Translations under genes and position numbers: made by a program
Shown here: piece by piece, positions 3,834 through 15,933 of the stretch
Numbering within the stretch: the first letter of the stretch is position 1
Layout of the letters: every line of letters starts with the position of its first letter
Assembly (NCBI GenBank): GCA_017445245.1
Contig: JAFSUM010000017.1
Span: 1 to 46,857 of the forward strand
Reading direction: 5' to 3'
Source of the DNA: Bacilli bacterium
Lineage (GTDB): Bacteria; Bacillota_I; Bacilli_A; RFN20; CAG-826
Length of the DNA stretch: 46,857 nucleotides
Notes under the pieces: model-generated
Database searches by the model: none
Told to the model about the DNA's origin: nothing
The model's input: the letters and a program-made list of their open reading frames with translations, nothing else

Positions 3834-3917
3834 GCGGGCGTGGCGGAATTGGTAGACGCGTTAGACTTAGGATCTAATGGGCTTCCCGTGCAGGTTCGAT
3901 TCCTGTCGCCCGCACCA
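3834..3917 (+). tRNA. tRNA-Leu (anticodon UAG)
   Basis: An 84-base class II tRNA: acceptor GCGGGCG/CGCCCGC, D-arm GGCGGAATTGGTAGACGC, anticodon stem TTAGA/TCTAA around CTTAGGA (anticodon TAG), a long variable arm (TGGGCTTCCCGT), T-arm CAGGTTCGATTCCTG and an encoded CCA. Confidence 0.96.
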
Positions 3918-4368: not shown

Positions 4369-4917
4369 GTGCCGGCGACACTAAAAAACGCCGTTTTTCT
4401 TTCACGATACATGGAACCGATTATTCGCTTCAAAGAAAGGATTCTTTCCGGCATCATCGTCGGGGCTTTGTCGTATTCTTCGCTCATTGGGAAGCGGGTT
4501 ATTGTAAGGTCGGCGTCATTCAAGGTTAGAAGCGAGTACGTTCTCAAATTCTTCCCTCGAAATTACCTTCGCCTCACGGGCGTTCGAACCACCCTTTCCC
4601 CCATAAATTCCTATTCGAAGGCGCTCGACGGCTCGTTGTCGCTTTCCGACTTCGACTGCGATTCGACCCCCGCCTTGAAGGGCACCGTCCGCTGCAAGGT
4701 CCGCAACCTTCAGAATATCGGCACCTTCTTCGAGTGAGTTATCAAGATCGAGGAGGATTTCTCCTCTGGGAGCGTGAGGTGCAAATTCGCGACCTCGGAA
4801 GGCGCTTTTACGCTCGGCTTCATGGGGACTTCCTTCTTGGTTCCGAACACCCTTTTGAACAAGGATAAGATCGGGGAATCAAAGCAGATTGTCGACTTTG
4901 AGATAATCGTTCAATGA
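4369..4917 (+). pseudogene. Interrupted ORF of unknown function before a terminator
   Basis: A frame running from 4369 encodes 122 residues to a TGA at 4735-4737, then continues open for another 59 residues to a TGA at 4915-4917. The part from about 4520 onward has coding-like composition on both sides of the stop; the two pieces share a short pattern (GTVRCKV before, GSVRCKF after), suggesting one beta-rich domain interrupted by a nonsense change. TGA is a stop elsewhere in this window, so reading it as Trp is not supported. A terminator follows at 4946. The 5' part before 4520 may belong to other debris; a minus-strand ORF overlaps it. No family recognised. Confidence 0.35.
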
Positions 4918-4945
4918 AAAAAGCTCGATGACGTTGGCTATGTTT

Positions 4946-4976
4946 CGTCTCTCGTGGGGAGAGGCGATTTTTCTTT
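4946..4976 (+). terminator. Terminator after the interrupted ORF
   Basis: CGTCTCTC (4946-4953) pairs with GAGAGGCG (4959-4966) over eight pairs with one G-U, loop GTGGG, followed by ATTTTTCTTTC. It insulates the following ABC operon. Confidence 0.75.
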
Positions 4977-5095
4977 CTAAAACGGAAACCTAAGTTTTTG
5001 CAAATGGAAGTGTTTTATCTGAAAACAGGTTCCTATGCGCATGCGTGTACATTTTGTGAAGGAAGGCCTCGTTAGGGTATAATGATTGCCGACAT
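4977..5095. other. Gap upstream of the ABC operon
   Basis: The stretch from the terminator to the operon start holds the operon promoter (5078-5083). Together with 4087-4368 and the pseudogenes it forms a 1-kb region, 4087-5095, with no intact gene. Confidence 0.5.
5078..5083 (+). promoter_or_regulatory. -10 box of the ABC exporter operon
   Basis: A perfect TATAAT ends 12 bases before the ATG at 5096, giving a predicted leader of only about 5-6 bases with no Shine-Dalgarno. No convincing -35 was found. Confidence 0.6.
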
Positions 5096-7405
5096 ATGAA
5101 CCCTTTGCTGTTCATGTATTTGCTCGTCGCCGGCGTTGCCATCGTCTTTTTTGGCGGCTATTTCTTTGCCCGTAAAAACGAGAAAACCCGTACCTGTTAC
5201 CGCCGTATTTGGGGCGGTGTCGCCATCGTTACCTTGCTTTGCCTTTTCTTTTTCGTCCCCATCGCAATGACGACGGACACGGGGATCAACGGCCAATATC
5301 TGACGAACGTTGGGAATGTGAATCTGGTAGGGGTGCCTTATGGCGAGAACAAGGTTGCCAACTTCTTTGCTTTGTTCCACCTGATTCTTTTCTTGCCTTC
5401 GGCTGCGTTGGCAGTGCTTTTCTTCCTGCTACCGAATCGGTGGAGTTCGTTTTTGCAGCGCTATGTCCTCTTGCCGAACCTATTGCTATCGATCGTCTTC
5501 CTATCGAATCTGCAACAGGCCTATATCGGGGATTTGGTCATCTCCCATAAAAGCGCCTTGGTCGTCATAAACGTCGCATTGCCTTTTGTTTTTGCCGCGG
5601 TGGACGTCTTGGAAAAGAAGAAGGAGTGGGCTTTCGACAAAAATACCATCATTGGGGCGATGCTCGCCTTCTTCGTGATTTTGCTCGCCTTCCTTCCGAT
5701 GGCCACTTTTGCCGCCCTCGTCCCAACGGATTGCATGTTCCTAGGGCGAATCGAGTATTCCTGGAGGGCAGTCGACTTTTCGATTGCCCATCGTTACTAC
5801 GTCTATGTTGGCATTGCCTATTATGTGACTTTGTTCTTCCTTTTGAACCGGCGGGAAAAAGCGGCGATGAAAGCCATCCTCTTGGCTGTGTGTTTCGGTA
5901 GCCTTTCTTCCTTCTTTACGCGTTATGGGTTCGAAGGCATCTTCGATTTTACCAAAGCCCAGCCCGTCCGCGTGACGCGCCTCCCCATCCACCTTTGCCA
6001 TACGGCGTTGCTCGTCATGCCGATCTGTATCGGCTTCGAGATGAAGCGCCTCTTCTATTTCACCTATTTCATCAACGTCTACGGCGCGGTCATGGCCATC
6101 GTCTTTCCCAATAACGGTGACAAGCAAAACATCTTCGATCCCGATATCCTTCTTTTCTGGTACAACCACTGGACCGCCTTGCTGATGCCCCTTATCTGCG
6201 TCGCCTTGGACTATTTCAAGCGTCCCAAAAAGAAGCAGATGGCCTTCTCCCTGGGGTTCTTTGCTTTGTATTTCGTCGCCATCATGTTCGCGAATGGATA
6301 TCTTTCCAACTTCGTCCCTGGCTATAGCCCGAACGTCATCGGTTCCGGCACGGACTATCTATTCTTAAATAACGACTACATCCTCGATATTCTCGGGGAA
6401 GAGGCAAAGAAGATGCTCGAAATCAAATGGATCATCAAGAGCAACGACCTCACACTCGTCTATTATCCGCTTTACCAGGCCATCTCCTTCGTGGGCTATG
6501 TCGTCATCGCCTATTTGATGTGGTTTGTCTATTCCCTTTTCTATCGAATCCACGATTCGCACGCCGAACTTCATGATCAACTCGTCCTCGTTAGAAGAAG
6601 CCACCTGAAATGGAAGGAGAAAATCGAAATGGAACACACGCAAGGAACAAATTCCTCCGGAGCACCGGAATTAGTCTTCCAGGGATTCTGCAAACGGTAT
6701 GGCAATTCGCCGAAGCTTTCCGCTGATCATGTCGATTTATCGATTCACGGGGGTGAGATTTTCGGGTTCCTAGGGCCTAATGGGGCAGGCAAATCTACCT
6801 GCATCAAATCCGCGATCGGCATCCAGCCGTTGACCGAAGGCACGATCGAAGTCTGCGGGCACGATATCGAAAACGATTCGGTCGAAGCCAAGCGCCTCAT
6901 CGGCTACGTGCCGGACCATTACGCGTTATACGAAAAACTGACGGGACGTGAATACATTTCTTATTTCGCGGACATCTACCGCGTCAGCAAGGAAGATCGC
7001 GACGCCCGCATCCAAGACCTCGTGACCCGTTTTGAATTGACCAACGCCTTCGATGCCCGCATCGAGACCTATAGTCATGGTATGAAGCAAAAAATCGCGA
7101 TTATGGCGGCCCTGGTGCACGACCCGAAGGTCTGGATCCTCGACGAACCGTTAACCGGTTTAGATCCGCAGTCGGTATTCCAGGTCAAGCAGACGATGAT
7201 CGCCCATGCGGCCAAAGGAAACGTCGTCTTCTTCTCGAGCCACATCATCGACGTGGTGGAAAGATTGTGTACCCGCATCGCCATCATCAAGGAAGGCAAA
7301 ATCGTCTACGAAGGGTCGATGGAAGAAACGTTGCAGAACCACCCCGAAGGATTGGAACGTTTCTATTTGAACGTGATTGGAGAATTGGATGGGAAAGAAG
7401 ACTGA
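5096..7405 (+). CDS. YwaF-like membrane domain fused to an ABC-2 type transporter ATPase
   Basis: The 769 residues hold two parts. Residues 1 to about 500 are a multi-span membrane domain (about a dozen hydrophobic segments) with the pattern LPIHLCHTALLVMPICIGF near 300 and FWYNHWTALLMPLI near 360, resembling the YwaF/TIGR02206 integral membrane family. Residues 524-760 are an ABC ATPase: Walker A GPNGAGKST (about 561), signature YSHGMKQK (about 659, the degenerate form usual in ABC-2 exporters), Walker B VWILDEP (about 680), H-loop SSH. A strong AAGGAG at 6614-6619 sits nine bases before an in-frame ATG (6629, residue 512), so a free 258-residue ATPase could also be made. The permease gene overlaps its end by 17 bases. 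The membrane-domain family call is by pattern memory. Confidence 0.8.
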   Translation: MNPLLFMYLLVAGVAIVFFGGYFFARKNEKTRTCYRRIWGGVAIVTLLCLFFFVPIAMTTDTGINGQYLTNVGNVNLVGVPYGENKVANFFALFHLILFLPSAALAVLFFLLPNRWSSFLQRYVLLPNLLLSIVFLSNLQQAYIGDLVISHKSALVVINVALPFVFAAVDVLEKKKEWAFDKNTIIGAMLAFFVILLAFLPMATFAALVPTDCMFLGRIEYSWRAVDFSIAHRYYVYVGIAYYVTLFFLLNRREKAAMKAILLAVCFGSLSSFFTRYGFEGIFDFTKAQPVRVTRLPIHLCHTALLVMPICIGFEMKRLFYFTYFINVYGAVMAIVFPNNGDKQNIFDPDILLFWYNHWTALLMPLICVALDYFKRPKKKQMAFSLGFFALYFVAIMFANGYLSNFVPGYSPNVIGSGTDYLFLNNDYILDILGEEAKKMLEIKWIIKSNDLTLVYYPLYQAISFVGYVVIAYLMWFVYSLFYRIHDSHAELHDQLVLVRRSHLKWKEKIEMEHTQGTNSSGAPELVFQGFCKRYGNSPKLSADHVDLSIHGGEIFGFLGPNGAGKSTCIKSAIGIQPLTEGTIEVCGHDIENDSVEAKRLIGYVPDHYALYEKLTGREYISYFADIYRVSKEDRDARIQDLVTRFELTNAFDARIETYSHGMKQKIAIMAALVHDPKVWILDEPLTGLDPQSVFQVKQTMIAHAAKGNVVFFSSHIIDVVERLCTRIAIIKEGKIVYEGSMEETLQNHPEGLERFYLNVIGELDGKED

Positions 7406-9098
7406 CGAAACGCTTCTGTCTTTTAAAGCCCTTGTTTCCATGCAGCTCAGGGCCTTCTTTCCCTATTCCTTCCAGGAACAAAAGAAGAAGGCGTTGATCC
7501 GGCTGATCCTTTATCTATTAGGGGTAGCGGCCATCACGGGCATCTTGTATTTGGTGCTGTTTCTCCTTGGCTTCCTCGGCGTCTTTGGCATAGGCGGGCG
7601 ACTACCGATTCCGGTTTGGAACGTCTTGTTCTTCCTCTTCCTTATCGTGAATTTTTTCTCTTGCCTTAACCGCGTCACGTCCTCGCTATATTTCTCAGAA
7701 GATAACCGCGTCTTGCTTTCGCTTCCGTTATCGCCTCAACGTGTCTTCTTGTCGAAGCTTATCGTCTTGTTTATCCAGGAACTCGTTCGTTCTTGTTTTA
7801 CTTTTTTGCCGTTGCTCGTTTCCATCGGAATCGCCTACAACATGCCAGTTTATTATTTCTTCTGGCAGCTGATCACGATTCCTCTGTTGTCCTTACTTCC
7901 GCTTGCCTTGTCGGCGGTGATTTCCATCCCGACCTTTTATATCAAGCGTTTCTTAAAACGTTATCCCCTCATCCAAAGCCTGATCGTCTTAGCCATCCTT
8001 ATCGCGGGAACGGTCGGTATCTTCGTTTTGACCTCCTTCATCCCGGAAGACCTCGCTTTGGCGAGCAAATGGCCGAACATCTATTTCCCCGCGATTACCT
8101 CTTTCACCCAACAGGTGAACACTGTGCTGCTTCCTTTTGCTTATTTGACCGCGATGTGCACCGGTTACCTTGGAACGGTTCAAACGGGTATCGGGGACAT
8201 TGTCCCCTTGTTCTCGATGACGAGTTTGATTCCGTTTGGGGTGGTGGTGACCCTGATCGTCGGGGGATTGGGCCTTTCGAGCCAACTTGCCAAGCGCGTC
8301 TATTCCAATTTGTCTGTCTCTTCCTTCGAACACGATGTGGTCAAGGTAAAGGAGAAAAAGAGTGAGAGGCCGCTTCCTTCTTTCGTGTCTTTCTTGAAAA
8401 AGGAACTCTTCGTCGAATTCCGCTCGACCCAGGCTTTGACGGGCAATTATCTTCTCTTCATCGTCACGCCTTTGGCGACCCTTCTTCTTAACGTCGTCTT
8501 CAATTCGATGAAGAAATCGTTCACGGGCCAATTGTTTACCCTGTTGTTCAACGGATTGATCATCGCCCTGATTGCGATGGCCACGAGCGTCTCCATGGCG
8601 TCCGTCTATTCGCGGGAGGGGAATTCGTCGTATTTGTTGCACTCTTCCCCGATGACGCTTCGCCGCGCCCTTCTTAGTAAACTCTTCCTACGTGCTTTGT
8701 TGATGACGGCATCGCTTGCTTTGACTATCGCGGTCTACGCGAACAACTGCACGTTGGATTACGTTCCGATGGCGACCGTCTTCTTCAGTCTCTATTTCAT
8801 GTACCTCGGCCACTTGCTCTGGTCGGCCGAACTCGATTACATGCACCCCAAAATCGGCTTATACCGCGATGGTGGCAAATCGGCCTTCAACCCGAACGAG
8901 GCGGTTTCGACGGTTTTGGCGTTCTTATTCGCCTTTATCTTCGCGGGGTTGATGTTCTTCTTCGCCTATGAATCGATCGCAACGGGTTTCTATCGCCTGC
9001 TCGCCTTCTCAGCTTTCTTCTTCCTCGCCCGTTTATTCTTCTTCTTGATGCGAATCAAAGGCTATCGCTCCTTGCCGCAGGAAGGAGGGCGCTTATGA
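7389..9098 (+). CDS. ABC-2 type exporter permease (large, EcsB/BcrB-like)
   Basis: This 569-residue membrane protein has about 12 predicted spans in two blocks separated by a cytoplasmic stretch near residues 310-350 that contains charged sequence (VKVKEKKSERPLP). This layout is typical of large ABC exporter permeases in Firmicutes. I start it at ATG 7389, with GGAG six to seven bases upstream, rather than at a TTG at 7377. It overlaps the ATPase gene by 17 bases and the next gene by 4 (ATGA), so the three are surely cotranscribed. It should form the pore for the ATPase domain encoded upstream. The substrate is unknown. Confidence 0.82.
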   Translation: MGKKTDETLLSFKALVSMQLRAFFPYSFQEQKKKALIRLILYLLGVAAITGILYLVLFLLGFLGVFGIGGRLPIPVWNVLFFLFLIVNFFSCLNRVTSSLYFSEDNRVLLSLPLSPQRVFLSKLIVLFIQELVRSCFTFLPLLVSIGIAYNMPVYYFFWQLITIPLLSLLPLALSAVISIPTFYIKRFLKRYPLIQSLIVLAILIAGTVGIFVLTSFIPEDLALASKWPNIYFPAITSFTQQVNTVLLPFAYLTAMCTGYLGTVQTGIGDIVPLFSMTSLIPFGVVVTLIVGGLGLSSQLAKRVYSNLSVSSFEHDVVKVKEKKSERPLPSFVSFLKKELFVEFRSTQALTGNYLLFIVTPLATLLLNVVFNSMKKSFTGQLFTLLFNGLIIALIAMATSVSMASVYSREGNSSYLLHSSPMTLRRALLSKLFLRALLMTASLALTIAVYANNCTLDYVPMATVFFSLYFMYLGHLLWSAELDYMHPKIGLYRDGGKSAFNPNEAVSTVLAFLFAFIFAGLMFFFAYESIATGFYRLLAFSAFFFLARLFFFLMRIKGYRSLPQEGGRL

Positions 9099-9667
9099 AA
9101 AAGATCACCGTCATTCTCGTTTCCGTCGTCTACGTCACCGCGATTATCGTGGTCGCATTCCTCGGTGTCCTCGCCGAAACGAAGAACCAAACCATCAACG
9201 TGACGAAGATCGTCCTCGACCAGGCTCGTAATTTGTCGCAGGGCGATGTTCTTACCTATCCGACGGGAACGATGCCACAGGATTCGGTATATGCCATCTT
9301 CTCGCGTCCGGAAAACGGCGAAGGCGGTTCTTATGACATCGCCTGGACGATCGATGGTATTCGCTTCGACTATGTCATCCAAATTCGCGGCTTTGCGACC
9401 ATTTATGAACGCGATGATTGGAAAGACGGGCAGGGGTGCTTTGATCTAGGCGCCTTCGTCTTGCCTGAAAACGCGACCGAACAAAGACTTCTGTATCACT
9501 TGAATGACGGTAGTGGGGACGAACCTTCCTTCGCGACGATCGATGAAGCAGGCCTTATCACCTTCACTGAAAAGATTTATGGCATCACCACCTTCCAGGC
9601 TGTGATCAATTCAACCGATAATTCAGGTGTGACGTGCAACGTTCGATTCATTGCCGTTGGGTATTAA
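9095..9667 (+). CDS. Membrane-anchored extracytoplasmic protein of the ABC operon
   Basis: The 190-residue protein starts with one hydrophobic span (VILVSVVYVTAIIVVAFLGVL, residues about 5-25) lacking an obvious lipobox or signal cleavage site, followed by an outside domain of about 160 residues. The C-terminal part (SFATIDEAGLITFTEKIYGITTFQAVI) resembles a bacterial Ig-like (BIG2-type) strand pattern. It starts inside the permease stop codon (ATGA), so its job is probably linked to the exporter, for example as an accessory or substrate-capturing subunit. No enzyme motif was seen. Confidence 0.75.
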   Translation: MKKITVILVSVVYVTAIIVVAFLGVLAETKNQTINVTKIVLDQARNLSQGDVLTYPTGTMPQDSVYAIFSRPENGEGGSYDIAWTIDGIRFDYVIQIRGFATIYERDDWKDGQGCFDLGAFVLPENATEQRLLYHLNDGSGDEPSFATIDEAGLITFTEKIYGITTFQAVINSTDNSGVTCNVRFIAVGY

Positions 9668-9772
9668 GAAACTAAGATCGGGCATCCAAAAGAATCACTT
9701 TTCTTATGTCTAGGTTTTTGCTTTGTTTGGCCTTGACTCTATCTTGCCTAACGAAGTCTTACTTGCGGAATA

Positions 9773-9799
9773 AAAAAGCAGGCGCATGTGGCGCCTACA
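9773..9799 (-). terminator. Terminator of the pseudopilin gene
   Basis: On the minus strand, about 20 bases after the stop, TAGGCGCC...GGCGCCT-like pairing (AGGCGC/GCGCCT, loop of about 5) is followed by GCTTTTTTATT. The T-run is only on the minus side. Confidence 0.75.
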
Positions 9800-9816
9800 A
9801 TAAGTTGGTTGAGGAT

Positions 9817-12800
9817 TTACTGTTGCCCGAGGAGCAAGCCGAGGTAATGGGTTCCAGCGGCCGCTTTGATGTAGCAGCCCAGGTAATCGGTATGGGCTAA
9901 TTCGGGGGAAGTTTCTTCCATCGGAACGATTATCATCGGATTAACCGTTGGCGTCGTCTCGGCGGCGAGTTGGCCAGCATAGATCAAGAATGCTTCAGGA
10001 TCAAGTTTAATGCCAGCCGTTCCAGCTTCGTTACCCATCATAGCAATATTGGTCATCGTGACATCCCCAAAAATAAGTGCTTGCGAATAACCTAATGCCT
10101 CTATAGCCATGCGATACATCTGTTGGTAAGTGGGATAGGAGGCATCGGTGTTAAAGGCTTTCATGTCTAGACCGGAGAGCAAATTGAGGCCTTCGACATC
10201 GACAACTGCGCTGGTTGCCTCTTTTGTGGCCGGAACAGCGGTGGGAATGGCGGTAGCGAGAAGATCGGCGTCATCCCAAATCTTGACGTGTCCTTCAAGA
10301 GCATGCTGGCTATTGCCCGTAGCGGCACTAGCGGTCATATCGAGGGCGATGATGTTGACGAGCGCGTTGCCGTCTTGGACTTTGGTGAAGAGTTTACCAC
10401 CAGAGGTGGATTCCGCGTTCCCCTTTAACCAACCACTTCCAGTGCCGTTGATGGCAACCATTGAGACTAATTCGGAAGCGGCGTGAGTGGCGAACCAGAC
10501 ATCGGTGGGCGACACGTAGTTTTCAAAGAAGACGTTCGCACAGTCAACACGAGTTTCGCGAGCAGTGAATAGTCCACCGTTGGTGTACTCGTTCTGTCCT
10601 TCGTATTGACGGCCTTTTTCATCTAGTAGCATGATGCCGCCGCCAGCACCCTTCATGAAGGAGTTGGTGATGTAGTTGTGGTTCGTGCCGTGGATGTAGA
10701 GCATCGAGTTATAGGAATCGAACGATTTGCAACGATCGATATAAGTGACAGGCGTCGGAGTCATGATCTTGGTCTCATCGTTATCCGCATATTTATAGTC
10801 ACCACACTGTGTCATGAACGAAGTAAAGGTCTTCGAAATGATTACGTTGCTAAAGGTGGTGTGTGTAGCGTCGAGCTTAAATCCGAAGAGGGCGCCTTGG
10901 TAATCGTCGTTATTGGAACGATCGCCATTGCCGATGACGGAAAGGTTCTTGAAGGTGTTCTTACCGCCGACACCGCGCTCAGGAAGAAGCAGTTCTCTGG
11001 AATACTCTTCCTTCATGCCATGGTCGTAAGAACAGTTGATACCAAACAAGGTGGTGTGCGAACCGTCGAAGACTTGATGGGAAAGTTCGCCCTTTTCATA
11101 TTGGGTTCCGCCATAACGGGTTCCAAAGAAGAAGACATGCTTCAAATGACTTGCGTCGATGGTGCAGTAATTGCCCTCGAACGCGAAGTCGAAGGTTTCG
11201 TCTTCAGGCTTGTATTCGGTCTTGTCTTCGATGAAATGGCCCGAGGTGCAAGAAGTACCACGATAGTAGAGAGGATAATCGTCCTTCATACTGCCGGTGA
11301 GAAGGCGCATGACATCCTTTTCGTTCATCTTCGGCAATTTATATTGTTCGCGAAGGGTGTTTTTCATGCCGAGGAAGGCGGCCATTTCGTCACTGTGGTT
11401 ACGGAAGTAATTCTGGACTTCGGTGGCGGTGTAGAAATAACGATCGGGGAAGTCGGTGTTCTTCAAGATAATGTCGCTATGAAGAACGAGGGCGTTCGGT
11501 TGAGGCACGGAGGCCAAACCATGAGTGGTCTTGTATTGTTTCCAGAAATCGCGGTCCGGATCGCGGAAGTGGGAGTTGTCGAAGAGGGACAAGCCCTTTG
11601 CGTCGACGACGTTATAGCCATCCACGCCTTTGAAATCGAAGCTCACGGATTTGCCGTTGAGGGTCGCGGTGAAGTGAAAGGTCTTTCCGATGGCGTCATC
11701 GCCTAAGACGAGGTTGCCGCCGGTATAGTTAAGCACGTCGGTTCCACTGCCGGAATTGTAGACGGTCTCGTCTTGGTCGGTCGCTTGCCAGGTGAGCCCG
11801 CTCGGATTCTTGAAAATGCGTTCGGCGAGGGTGGTGGAATCCGTGGTGACCGCCATCATGGGGAAAGCGAGTGGGTTATCGTCGCCGACTTTATAGATGT
11901 CGTAGGTGCCTTCTTCGTTTTCGTAGAAGGTGTTGCGGTTCGGGTTCTTGTTGGTTTGGATGGTTTCGACCTTATCGAGATTCGAAACACGGTTTTTGAA
12001 TTTGGTGATGAAACCGGGCAACCGGAGCTCGGTGACCTTGGACGTATCCAAAGCGGAAGCGGGATAGTTGACGGTCGAGCTGTTGCCGCCGTTGGAGGCA
12101 ACCGTAACGGTTGCGGTAGAAGGTTCGACGACGACGTCAGAACCGGATTCGAGGACGACGCGGCCCGCATCGACGACGATCGGCTGATAGACGAAGCCAT
12201 ATTCGTGATAAGAGCTATTGGCGACCGCAATGATGTGAATATTGTCCGCGATGCCAGCATGGTGGATCGTATCGGCGGGGGAGTCGATGGTCAGTTCGCA
12301 TTCCATGTTGTTGCCGGTGGCGATCAGACCATGCTCGTAAGCGGGGGCGGTGGAGGGGCGTTTGTAATATATCGAGACGATGTTATCTTGTTCGCCTGCG
12401 TCGAAACTGACGGTCAAGGGCGCCTCGGACGTACCGACGACAGTCTGAGACAAATCCCATTCCGGTCCGGCGTAGATGCCGAATTTCTGGTGGACGGGGT
12501 CGAAGTGATCCGTGACTTCAAGCATTTCGCCCGGCTGGCTGACCTTGAGATCCCCATCGCCGAAGACGAGGTTCGCGTCGTTGTCAACGATGGCGAAGCG
12601 ATTGGCGGCAGGGTCGTAAATAAGGTGGTTGTCTCCGCTTGGCTTATAGAAAGCGATATCGAGTCCAGCCTCTTTTTGGACCGTCGCGATCGCGTCTTTC
12701 ATCGAGGAGTTCTTTCCACCCATCGCCAAGGCGGTATTCGCGTTTTTGACGAAAGACTGGTCAGAAGCTTCCTGCGCCTTTTTGGTGAGGTTGGTGAACG

Positions 12801-12912
12801 TCGGGATGAGGATCGCGGTCAAAATGCCGATGACGGCGATGACGATGACGAGTTCGACGATAGTAAAGCCCTTGCGAGACTTTCCTTCTCTTCTTTTTTC
12901 TCTAATCAACAT
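9817..12912 (-). CDS. Giant type IV pseudopilin-like surface protein (1031 residues)
   Basis: The N-terminus is a class III prepilin signal: a basic leader of 15 residues ending in RKG, then FTIVELVIVIAVIGILTAIL with Glu at mature position 5, so it should be processed by a prepilin peptidase. Ordinary pilins are 100-250 residues; this one has an extra region of about 900. Residues about 570-870 contain repeated short strands rich in Asn, Gly and Thr (TFKNLSVIGNG, TTFSNVIISKTF, YITNSFMKGAGGG), which suggests a right-handed parallel beta-helix, a fold common in glycan-binding and adhesive proteins. A ribosome-binding site (AAAGGA) precedes the ATG, and a terminator follows. No pilus assembly gene lies in the window. 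The beta-helix call is inference. Confidence 0.8.
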   Translation of the reverse strand: MLIREKRREGKSRKGFTIVELVIVIAVIGILTAILIPTFTNLTKKAQEASDQSFVKNANTALAMGGKNSSMKDAIATVQKEAGLDIAFYKPSGDNHLIYDPAANRFAIVDNDANLVFGDGDLKVSQPGEMLEVTDHFDPVHQKFGIYAGPEWDLSQTVVGTSEAPLTVSFDAGEQDNIVSIYYKRPSTAPAYEHGLIATGNNMECELTIDSPADTIHHAGIADNIHIIAVANSSYHEYGFVYQPIVVDAGRVVLESGSDVVVEPSTATVTVASNGGNSSTVNYPASALDTSKVTELRLPGFITKFKNRVSNLDKVETIQTNKNPNRNTFYENEEGTYDIYKVGDDNPLAFPMMAVTTDSTTLAERIFKNPSGLTWQATDQDETVYNSGSGTDVLNYTGGNLVLGDDAIGKTFHFTATLNGKSVSFDFKGVDGYNVVDAKGLSLFDNSHFRDPDRDFWKQYKTTHGLASVPQPNALVLHSDIILKNTDFPDRYFYTATEVQNYFRNHSDEMAAFLGMKNTLREQYKLPKMNEKDVMRLLTGSMKDDYPLYYRGTSCTSGHFIEDKTEYKPEDETFDFAFEGNYCTIDASHLKHVFFFGTRYGGTQYEKGELSHQVFDGSHTTLFGINCSYDHGMKEEYSRELLLPERGVGGKNTFKNLSVIGNGDRSNNDDYQGALFGFKLDATHTTFSNVIISKTFTSFMTQCGDYKYADNDETKIMTPTPVTYIDRCKSFDSYNSMLYIHGTNHNYITNSFMKGAGGGIMLLDEKGRQYEGQNEYTNGGLFTARETRVDCANVFFENYVSPTDVWFATHAASELVSMVAINGTGSGWLKGNAESTSGGKLFTKVQDGNALVNIIALDMTASAATGNSQHALEGHVKIWDDADLLATAIPTAVPATKEATSAVVDVEGLNLLSGLDMKAFNTDASYPTYQQMYRMAIEALGYSQALIFGDVTMTNIAMMGNEAGTAGIKLDPEAFLIYAGQLAAETTPTVNPMIIVPMEETSPELAHTDYLGCYIKAAAGTHYLGLLLGQQ

Positions 12913-15368: not shown

Positions 15369-15719
15369 TTAGACGATGGTCTGTCTATTGCGGCCGCTAT
15401 ACAAGAACCTGCGCATTTCCATGGTCTTCGGGCATCCGGGAAGGACCACATAACAAACCACAAAATTCTTTACATAGATCCGATAGTAGGGATATTGACG
15501 ATTCTTCCGAGAACGATAGGGCTCAAATGACTCTGGGTTGCGACTTCTTTGAAGAATCGCCTCCTCGACATCGTCGATTAATTGATTAGCAGCCTTTTCG
15601 TTCTGGAGGGTGTCAGGAATATATGCGACGGCTTCAGCTAGATTATCGCGGAAAAGAGGCAAATACGAGAGAATGATTTCAGCTATATTATTTGCGTAAT
15701 CCGTCAAAGACTTCGGCAT
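15369..15719 (-). CDS. RelE/ParE-family toxin
   Basis: About 116 residues, with the family pattern in the second half: DTLQNEKAANQLIDDVEEAI (about residues 35-54), YPYYRIYVKNFVVCYVV (about 74-90), and a C-terminal basic strand MEMRRFLYSGRNRQ. RelE-type members act as ribosome-dependent mRNA nucleases and ParE-type members on gyrase; which applies is not clear here. I take ATG 15719, which overlaps the antitoxin gene end by 32 bases; a TTG a few codons later would give a shorter overlap, and a longer in-frame start at 15782 adds residues that are only antitoxin sequence in another frame. Confidence 0.82.
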   Translation of the reverse strand: MPKSLTDYANNIAEIILSYLPLFRDNLAEAVAYIPDTLQNEKAANQLIDDVEEAILQRSRNPESFEPYRSRKNRQYPYYRIYVKNFVVCYVVLPGCPKTMEMRRFLYSGRNRQTIV

Positions 15720-15933
15720 GAGCCAGTCTTCGCGAATCCGTTTCCGCCTGTCGATCCGCTTCATCAAGGGATAATTCGACATTATTGATGATTCGCGAGT
15801 ACTCTTCGATAGACAAAACTACCATGGAGCCATAGCCGTTTTTGGTTAATATGACGTGGCCGTTCTTCTTGACGGCCTCTTCGATATCCACGAATTTATT
15901 CCTCAAATCTGAAACTGGCCTTATGTCTAACAT
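15688..15933 (-). CDS. Phd/YefM-family antitoxin
   Basis: The 81-residue protein fits the family: MLDIRPVSDLRNKF at the N-terminus, then HVILTKNGYGSMVVLSIEEYSRI (about residues 25-48), and an acidic-basic C-terminal arm expected to wrap the toxin. It is upstream of and overlaps the RelE/ParE-like gene. TATGAT at 15949-15954 (minus) would leave a 9-base leader. The promoter region contains the direct repeat TGATAA-N5-TGATAA, a possible operator for autoregulation. Confidence 0.87.
   Translation of the reverse strand: MLDIRPVSDLRNKFVDIEEAVKKNGHVILTKNGYGSMVVLSIEEYSRIINNVELSLDEADRQAETDSRRLAHAEVFDGLRK

Follow-up and report, generated by a model that had tools for sequence, protein, structure and literature searches.

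A membrane acyltransferase-like domain fused to an ABC ATPase, with a conserved internal translation start signal, in uncultured Bacilli and Clostridia

The fusion gene and its neighbours

The window analyzed in this study, a stretch of 46,857 nucleotides from a Bacilli bacterium (contig JAFSUM010000017.1), carries at 5096-7405 on its + strand an ORF that is open throughout from ATG to TGA and encodes 769 amino acids, in which ORF analysis, Pfam, and AlphaFold delineate a membrane domain, a linker, and an ABC ATPase. The original prediction, that a single frame encodes a YwaF-like membrane domain followed by a full ABC ATPase, agrees with the Pfam matches: PF14808 (TMEM164) at residues 229-461 (E 5e-17; 62.7 bits against a cut-off of 25) and PF00005 (ABC_tran) at residues 544-686 (E 6e-27). 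The membrane domain (5096-6610, + strand, approximately residues 1-505) also matches TIGR02206, the NCBIfam model for YwaF/TP0381 described as 'TMEM164-related integral membrane acyltransferase', albeit below its cut-off (37 bits versus 75). Taken with alignments and the structural model, these profiles point to a TMEM164/YwaF (ATGY)-like domain. A structure prediction had been proposed for the membrane part; the AlphaFold model of the whole fusion (mean pLDDT 88) contains a complete ATPase and, by our own count of its helices, 13 membrane helices. The last of these is long (residues 458-517) and extends into the cytosol, and a low-confidence spot lies at residues 514-521. A PDB sequence search with the membrane domain gave no match, the matches listed by Foldseek for the whole fusion model were ATPases or ABC proteins, and a viral fold library returned mainly ABC ATPases. 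The ATPase retains Walker A, signature, and Walker B motifs (GxNGAGKST, SHGMKQ, and LDEP), all invariant in an alignment of 43 sequences.

Within the membrane domain, H299, C301, and H358 are invariant (alignments A1 and A4), and a pattern search found the P-xHxC motif in 136 of 140 homologous fusions. A Cys/His pair is presumably catalytic in TMEM164/YwaF (ATGY) proteins. When the helices of the model are oriented by the positive-inside rule, with KRPKKK (~375-380), NRREK (~252), and EMKR (~315) inside, helix 9 carries H299 and C301 at its outer end, and H358 falls within the outer half of helix 11. This placement suggests that the three residues form a putative acyltransferase site facing the outer leaflet. 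Such an orientation would fit the ATGY superfamily, since Bacillus LhaT, a member of it, N-acetylates lipoproteins extracellularly using a lipid-borne acetyl donor (PMC12345273). Acyl transfer between lipids has been reported for TMEM164, and the same paper states that the route delivering outer-surface acyl donors to LhaT and similar enzymes is unknown (PMC12345273).

A sigma-A-like promoter, TTGTGA-18-TATAAT (5054-5083, + strand; 10 of 12 matches in a consensus scan), precedes the gene and is taken as a lead: it is the sole + strand promoter-like site in 4700-9900, a number of sites no higher than in shuffled sequence. Because its -10 box ends 12 nt before the ATG at 5096, the full-length message may be near-leaderless in the window. 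The energy of Shine-Dalgarno (SD) pairing at this ATG is 0.0, with no SD upstream; other members of the family have SDs of mixed strength at the 5' start (mean -4.4). An internal promoter yielding a short message was considered and rejected, as the same simple-consensus scan found no + strand promoter-like site inside the fusion gene.

The next gene (7389-9098, + strand), whose ATG overlaps the last codons of the fusion gene, encodes a 569-aa ABC-2-type permease. Its match to PF16949 falls just under the cut-off, and its structural model (pLDDT 84) shows two sets of six helices in one chain; cognate transmembrane halves of the 6-helix type are thus encoded next to the ATPase gene. The whole chain resembles the permease of a mycobacterial pump (8k1o/8k1n) over 399-417 residues (Z ~12), and its C-terminal half resembles NosY, ABCG2, and ABCA1 (Z 13-15). 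In sequence, by an internal-repeat profile test, the two halves are only weakly alike (hhalign E 0.027), which counts against the tandem reading. From this modelling, the permease should be a tandem chain supplying both transmembrane halves, and therefore one permease should bind two ATPases.

The third gene, at 9095-9667 (+ strand), encodes a 190-aa membrane-anchored extracytoplasmic protein with one helix, whose homologues are Big_2-like. Most loci examined encode such a small protein in third place, and in most of them the fusion/permease pair is also accompanied by a large anchored protein. These large downstream proteins have a lipobox in 76 of 77 cases; for the exception, L103, the wrong neighbour had been picked, and the true homologue elsewhere in that locus has one. 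In the window, a convergent gene at 9817-12912 (- strand) encodes a pilin-like anchored (N_methyl) protein of 1031 aa. Its domain of ~600 aa matches a profile of the relatives' lipoproteins (E 3e-99), and the same domain is borne by the adjacent lipoprotein in relatives; this product is a probable partner.

The ~600-aa domain thus appears with exchanged anchors, as a lipoprotein in relatives and with a type IV pilin-like N-terminus in the window and likewise in L041. The adjacent lipoproteins (L192:4533-6626, L186:9952-12102, and others) form a large family; they have Big domains, and their conserved C-terminal domain bears the motifs VGDDN, DGYNVY, and GNYFTID and for most of its length lies outside any Pfam model.

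Distribution and origin of the fusion

Searches of genomes at genus, order, class, and phylum level, together with a search of GTDB contigs, collected 140 distinct homologous fusions from uncultured Bacilli and Clostridia, many of them from gut or rumen. Among the best 80 of 233 loci in the GTDB genome collection, all 80 are fused. The same fusion, which the original prediction had proposed to seek in related genomes, is thus present in many of them, and an assembly or frame error as its source is ruled out. The family is patchy: a relative is present in 65 of 279 genomes of the order and, at class level, in 38 of the 395 genomes sampled. Conservation in some 140 relatives makes it very probable that the arrangement has a function and is no accident.

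Homologues in separate genes, joined here by a sequencing-type frame error, had been named as one finding that would refute the prediction; the homologues are not of this kind. In a maximum-likelihood tree of the membrane domain, the 67 fused representatives form one clade (support 98/83), and the split and stand-alone relatives fall outside it. The only truly split relative found (G046, L046) has a 634-aa membrane gene followed by an overlapping ATPase gene with a strong SD at its start. The fusion is therefore old and, most simply, of single origin. Split genes as the norm were considered and rejected, as only L046 is split. L125, L126, L127, and L128 are stand-alone long-form YwaF/TMEM164-like paralogues of ~450-500 aa without an ATPase; in these the His of the HxC motif is replaced by Q or another residue and the Cys is retained. 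One further locus (L073) was listed as stand-alone only because its contig ends there.

The internal start and its conservation

Just after the membrane domain, an AAGGAG at 6614-6619 (+ strand) lies 9 nt before an in-frame ATG at exactly 6629-6631 (codon 512), in accord with the positions, spacing, and frame given by the original prediction. This codon adjoins the low-confidence spot of the fusion model. Initiation there would read a same-frame ORF at 6629-7405 (+ strand), with a predicted product of 258 aa (~29 kDa) containing the entire ATPase domain. The duplex energy of the internal SD is -9.4 kcal/mol, compared with a mean of -2.0 at the 17 other in-frame ATGs of the gene. The window thus has a strong SD at the internal start but none at the full-length start.

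The internal start, whose conservation had been proposed as a check, is indeed retained in relatives. With the linker taken as the region between the membrane domain and the ATPase, and a strong SD as a best pairing to the 16S tail of ≤ -5.5 kcal/mol, an in-frame linker ATG is found in 138 of 140 fusions and a strong linker SD in 131. In two relatives (L165 and L177), GTG replaces ATG, giving Val in the fusion, and the SD is retained at -8.1 and -11.4. In the close relative L012, SD and ATG are both shifted by a few codons. In nine of the 140 fusions the SD is weak or the linker ATG is missing, and two of these nine are the ones that use GTG; L115 has no plausible internal start. In the large GRSxxEPM lineage, the SD-ATG spacing is 13 nt, which is beyond optimal. 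The 16S 3' end of the genus was found in only one of 31 assemblies (G020), where it has the canonical CCTCC.

For 68 non-redundant representatives (<60% identity), the mean SD energy is -8.3, whereas synonymous shuffles give -4.55 ± 0.27 (z = -14), with none of 500 shuffles reaching -8.3. The 53 fusions from the GTDB scan alone repeat this result (-7.97 versus -4.52). Other in-frame ATGs of the same genes have a mean of -1.3 (n = 1281), and out-of-frame linker ATGs one of -2.15. Different residues encode the SD in different lineages: Lys-Glu (AAGGAG), Gly-Arg-Ser (GGAAGGAG), Leu-Gly-Gly (TTAGGAGGT), Glu-Glu (GAGGAGG), and Lys-Glu-Val (AAGGAGGT). In the Gly-Arg-Ser lineage, the uncommon Arg codon AGG is used in 38 of 55 cases, as against 144 of 1294 elsewhere in the same genes. 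The mRNA near the internal start is also less folded than its synonymous shuffles (-4.95 versus -6.85 ± 0.28, z = 6.8). Free ABC ATPases sampled from the same genome have start SDs with a mean of -7.4 (five of eight strong) at a similar distance from Walker A, and five ordinary multi-domain ABC proteins of that genome have no internal SD/ATG site.

The SD energies, the folding, and the GTG relatives indicate that SD and start codon are conserved beyond protein-level need. In our view, this comparison among relatives establishes selection for internal initiation, because the SD exceeds synonymous expectation, is encoded by varied residues, lies in a region of low folding, is absent at other internal ATGs, and is kept where GTG replaces ATG. 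Judged from the sequence signals, a free ATPase should be made from this start.

A proposed transporter and its alternatives

Starting from the architecture of the fusion, its conservation, and the selection on its internal start, we infer a free product, a one-plus-one stoichiometry, catalysis, and a substrate as follows. One message would give two in-frame products, the full-length fusion and a free ATPase from the SD/ATG at 6614-6631. The former would carry an ABC ATPase as the cytosolic tail of an acyltransferase-like membrane domain, and the next gene would provide a single-chain, 12-helix ABC-2 permease needing two ATPase subunits. The likeliest assembly would be one permease joined by a pair of ATPases, of which at least one is tethered to the TMEM164-like domain while the other is free. 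One tethered and one free ATPase are plausible on these models, the more so because the neighbouring permease is modelled as a single tandem chain of 12 helices; this arrangement would place one enzyme domain on each pump instead of two. The original prediction had included neither the acyltransferase-like site nor the tandem permease nor the lipoprotein partner. The substrate of the enzyme domain, with its outward Cys/His, may be a lipid or the anchored surface protein encoded nearby, in most cases a lipoprotein, and the reaction may be coupled to ATP-driven movement of the same lipid or lipoprotein. Taken as a whole, this explanation, in which two products, a tandem permease, and an asymmetric pump combine with an enzyme acting along with transport, is the one we consider probable. 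More tentatively, the exporter may be asymmetric by design, one ATPase carrying an outer-leaflet acyltransferase and the other being free and made from the same gene at the internal start, with the ATP cycle moving a lipid or lipoprotein while the enzyme acylates the moved molecule or uses it as a donor for the operon's surface lipoprotein. Such a machine, which would export and modify lipoproteins or lipids, would be of an undescribed kind; we would hold this possible, but would not wager on it.

Both products could also be made and yet be used differently, the transporter being a permease with two fusion subunits and the free ATPase serving as an assembly or dosage factor. A precedent of another kind exists in sctQ/yscQ, the internal product of which is needed for assembly (PMC4295842). 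Nothing speaks directly against this arrangement, and the tandem permease eases an asymmetric one-plus-one pair without requiring it; on balance we think a pump with two fusion subunits unlikely.

That the SD and ATG are a relic of a separate, pre-fusion ATPase gene, their role since lost, would accord with the split relative L046, whose ATPase gene has just such an overlapping start and strong SD, and with the descent of the fusions from one event. However, the fusion is as old as the ancestor shared by the copies sampled from Bacilli and Clostridia, whose membrane domains go down to ~25% identity, and at this great age a relic SD would have decayed. Instead, across 68 divergent representatives the SD is stronger than synonymous shuffling predicts, and among relatives its position shifts and GTG can stand in for ATG, which makes a relic improbable. 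Even less credit can be given to a translational pause, in which the SD-like stretch starts no protein and aids insertion of the membrane domain before the ATPase is synthesized. The stretch does lie immediately behind the final membrane helix with its cytosolic extension, but a pause needs no start codon, and an in-frame ATG or GTG stands at initiation spacing in nearly all members; moreover, the region is unfolded as at initiation sites, and the other multi-domain ABC proteins of the genome are without such a site. Chance AGGAG-like strings in a linker rich in Lys, Glu, and Arg can practically be dismissed, being statistically refuted by the synonymous linker shuffles, which by themselves reach ≤ -5.5 in ~40% of cases as against 63 of 68 representatives, and by the mean energy, the AGG codon choice, the GTG replacements, and the reduced folding.

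The proposed two-product exporter shares features with several known systems. YwaF/TP0381 (TIGR02206), TMEM164 (PF14808), and LhaT/YpjA resemble the fusion in membrane fold by profile and in the conserved Cys and His, but they are single-domain enzymes, whereas the fusion has ~200 extra N-terminal residues and a C-terminal ABC ATPase; its TIGR02206 score is under the cut-off, and its acyltransferase activity is putative. In the mycobacterial efflux pump (8k1m-8k1p), one chain likewise holds both permease halves, albeit with a sequence identity of ~10% to the window permease; unlike that pump, the window system has an ATPase joined to an enzyme-like membrane domain and is predicted to make the ATPase in free form as well. 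The ATPase is of the same type as the free ABC-2 ATPases DrrA/NodI/PmtA (TIGR01188 and others), and the internal product would begin at their start position, but in the main product it is fused, and it scores under all listed equivalog cut-offs. Internal in-frame starts have precedents, among them SctQ/YscQ/SpaO of type III secretion, where the C-terminal product of one frame joins the full-length protein and both are needed (PMC4295842); this protein is unrelated and is not a transporter ATPase.

In the open-access literature, we found no work joining YwaF with an ABC transporter and none in which an internal start supplies the ATPase of a transporter. If the proposal is correct, an internal translation start, conserved in both Bacilli and Clostridia, would determine the subunit asymmetry of an ABC transporter, and an ATGY-type acyltransferase would be tied to an exporter. 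An enzyme joined to an ABC motor, with a lipoprotein gene next to it, would offer a testable answer to the supply of acyl donors for LhaT-like enzymes, and genome annotation would have overlooked the free ATPase across the whole family.

Elsewhere in the window, a lone ORF with a ParE-like toxin domain (15372-15782, - strand) lies near a PlsX-like fatty-acid synthesis gene. The regions 1253-1437 and 3834-3917 carry tRNA-Thr and tRNA-Val (- strand) and tRNA-Leu (+ strand), and the ORFs overlapping 3834-3917 are spurious.
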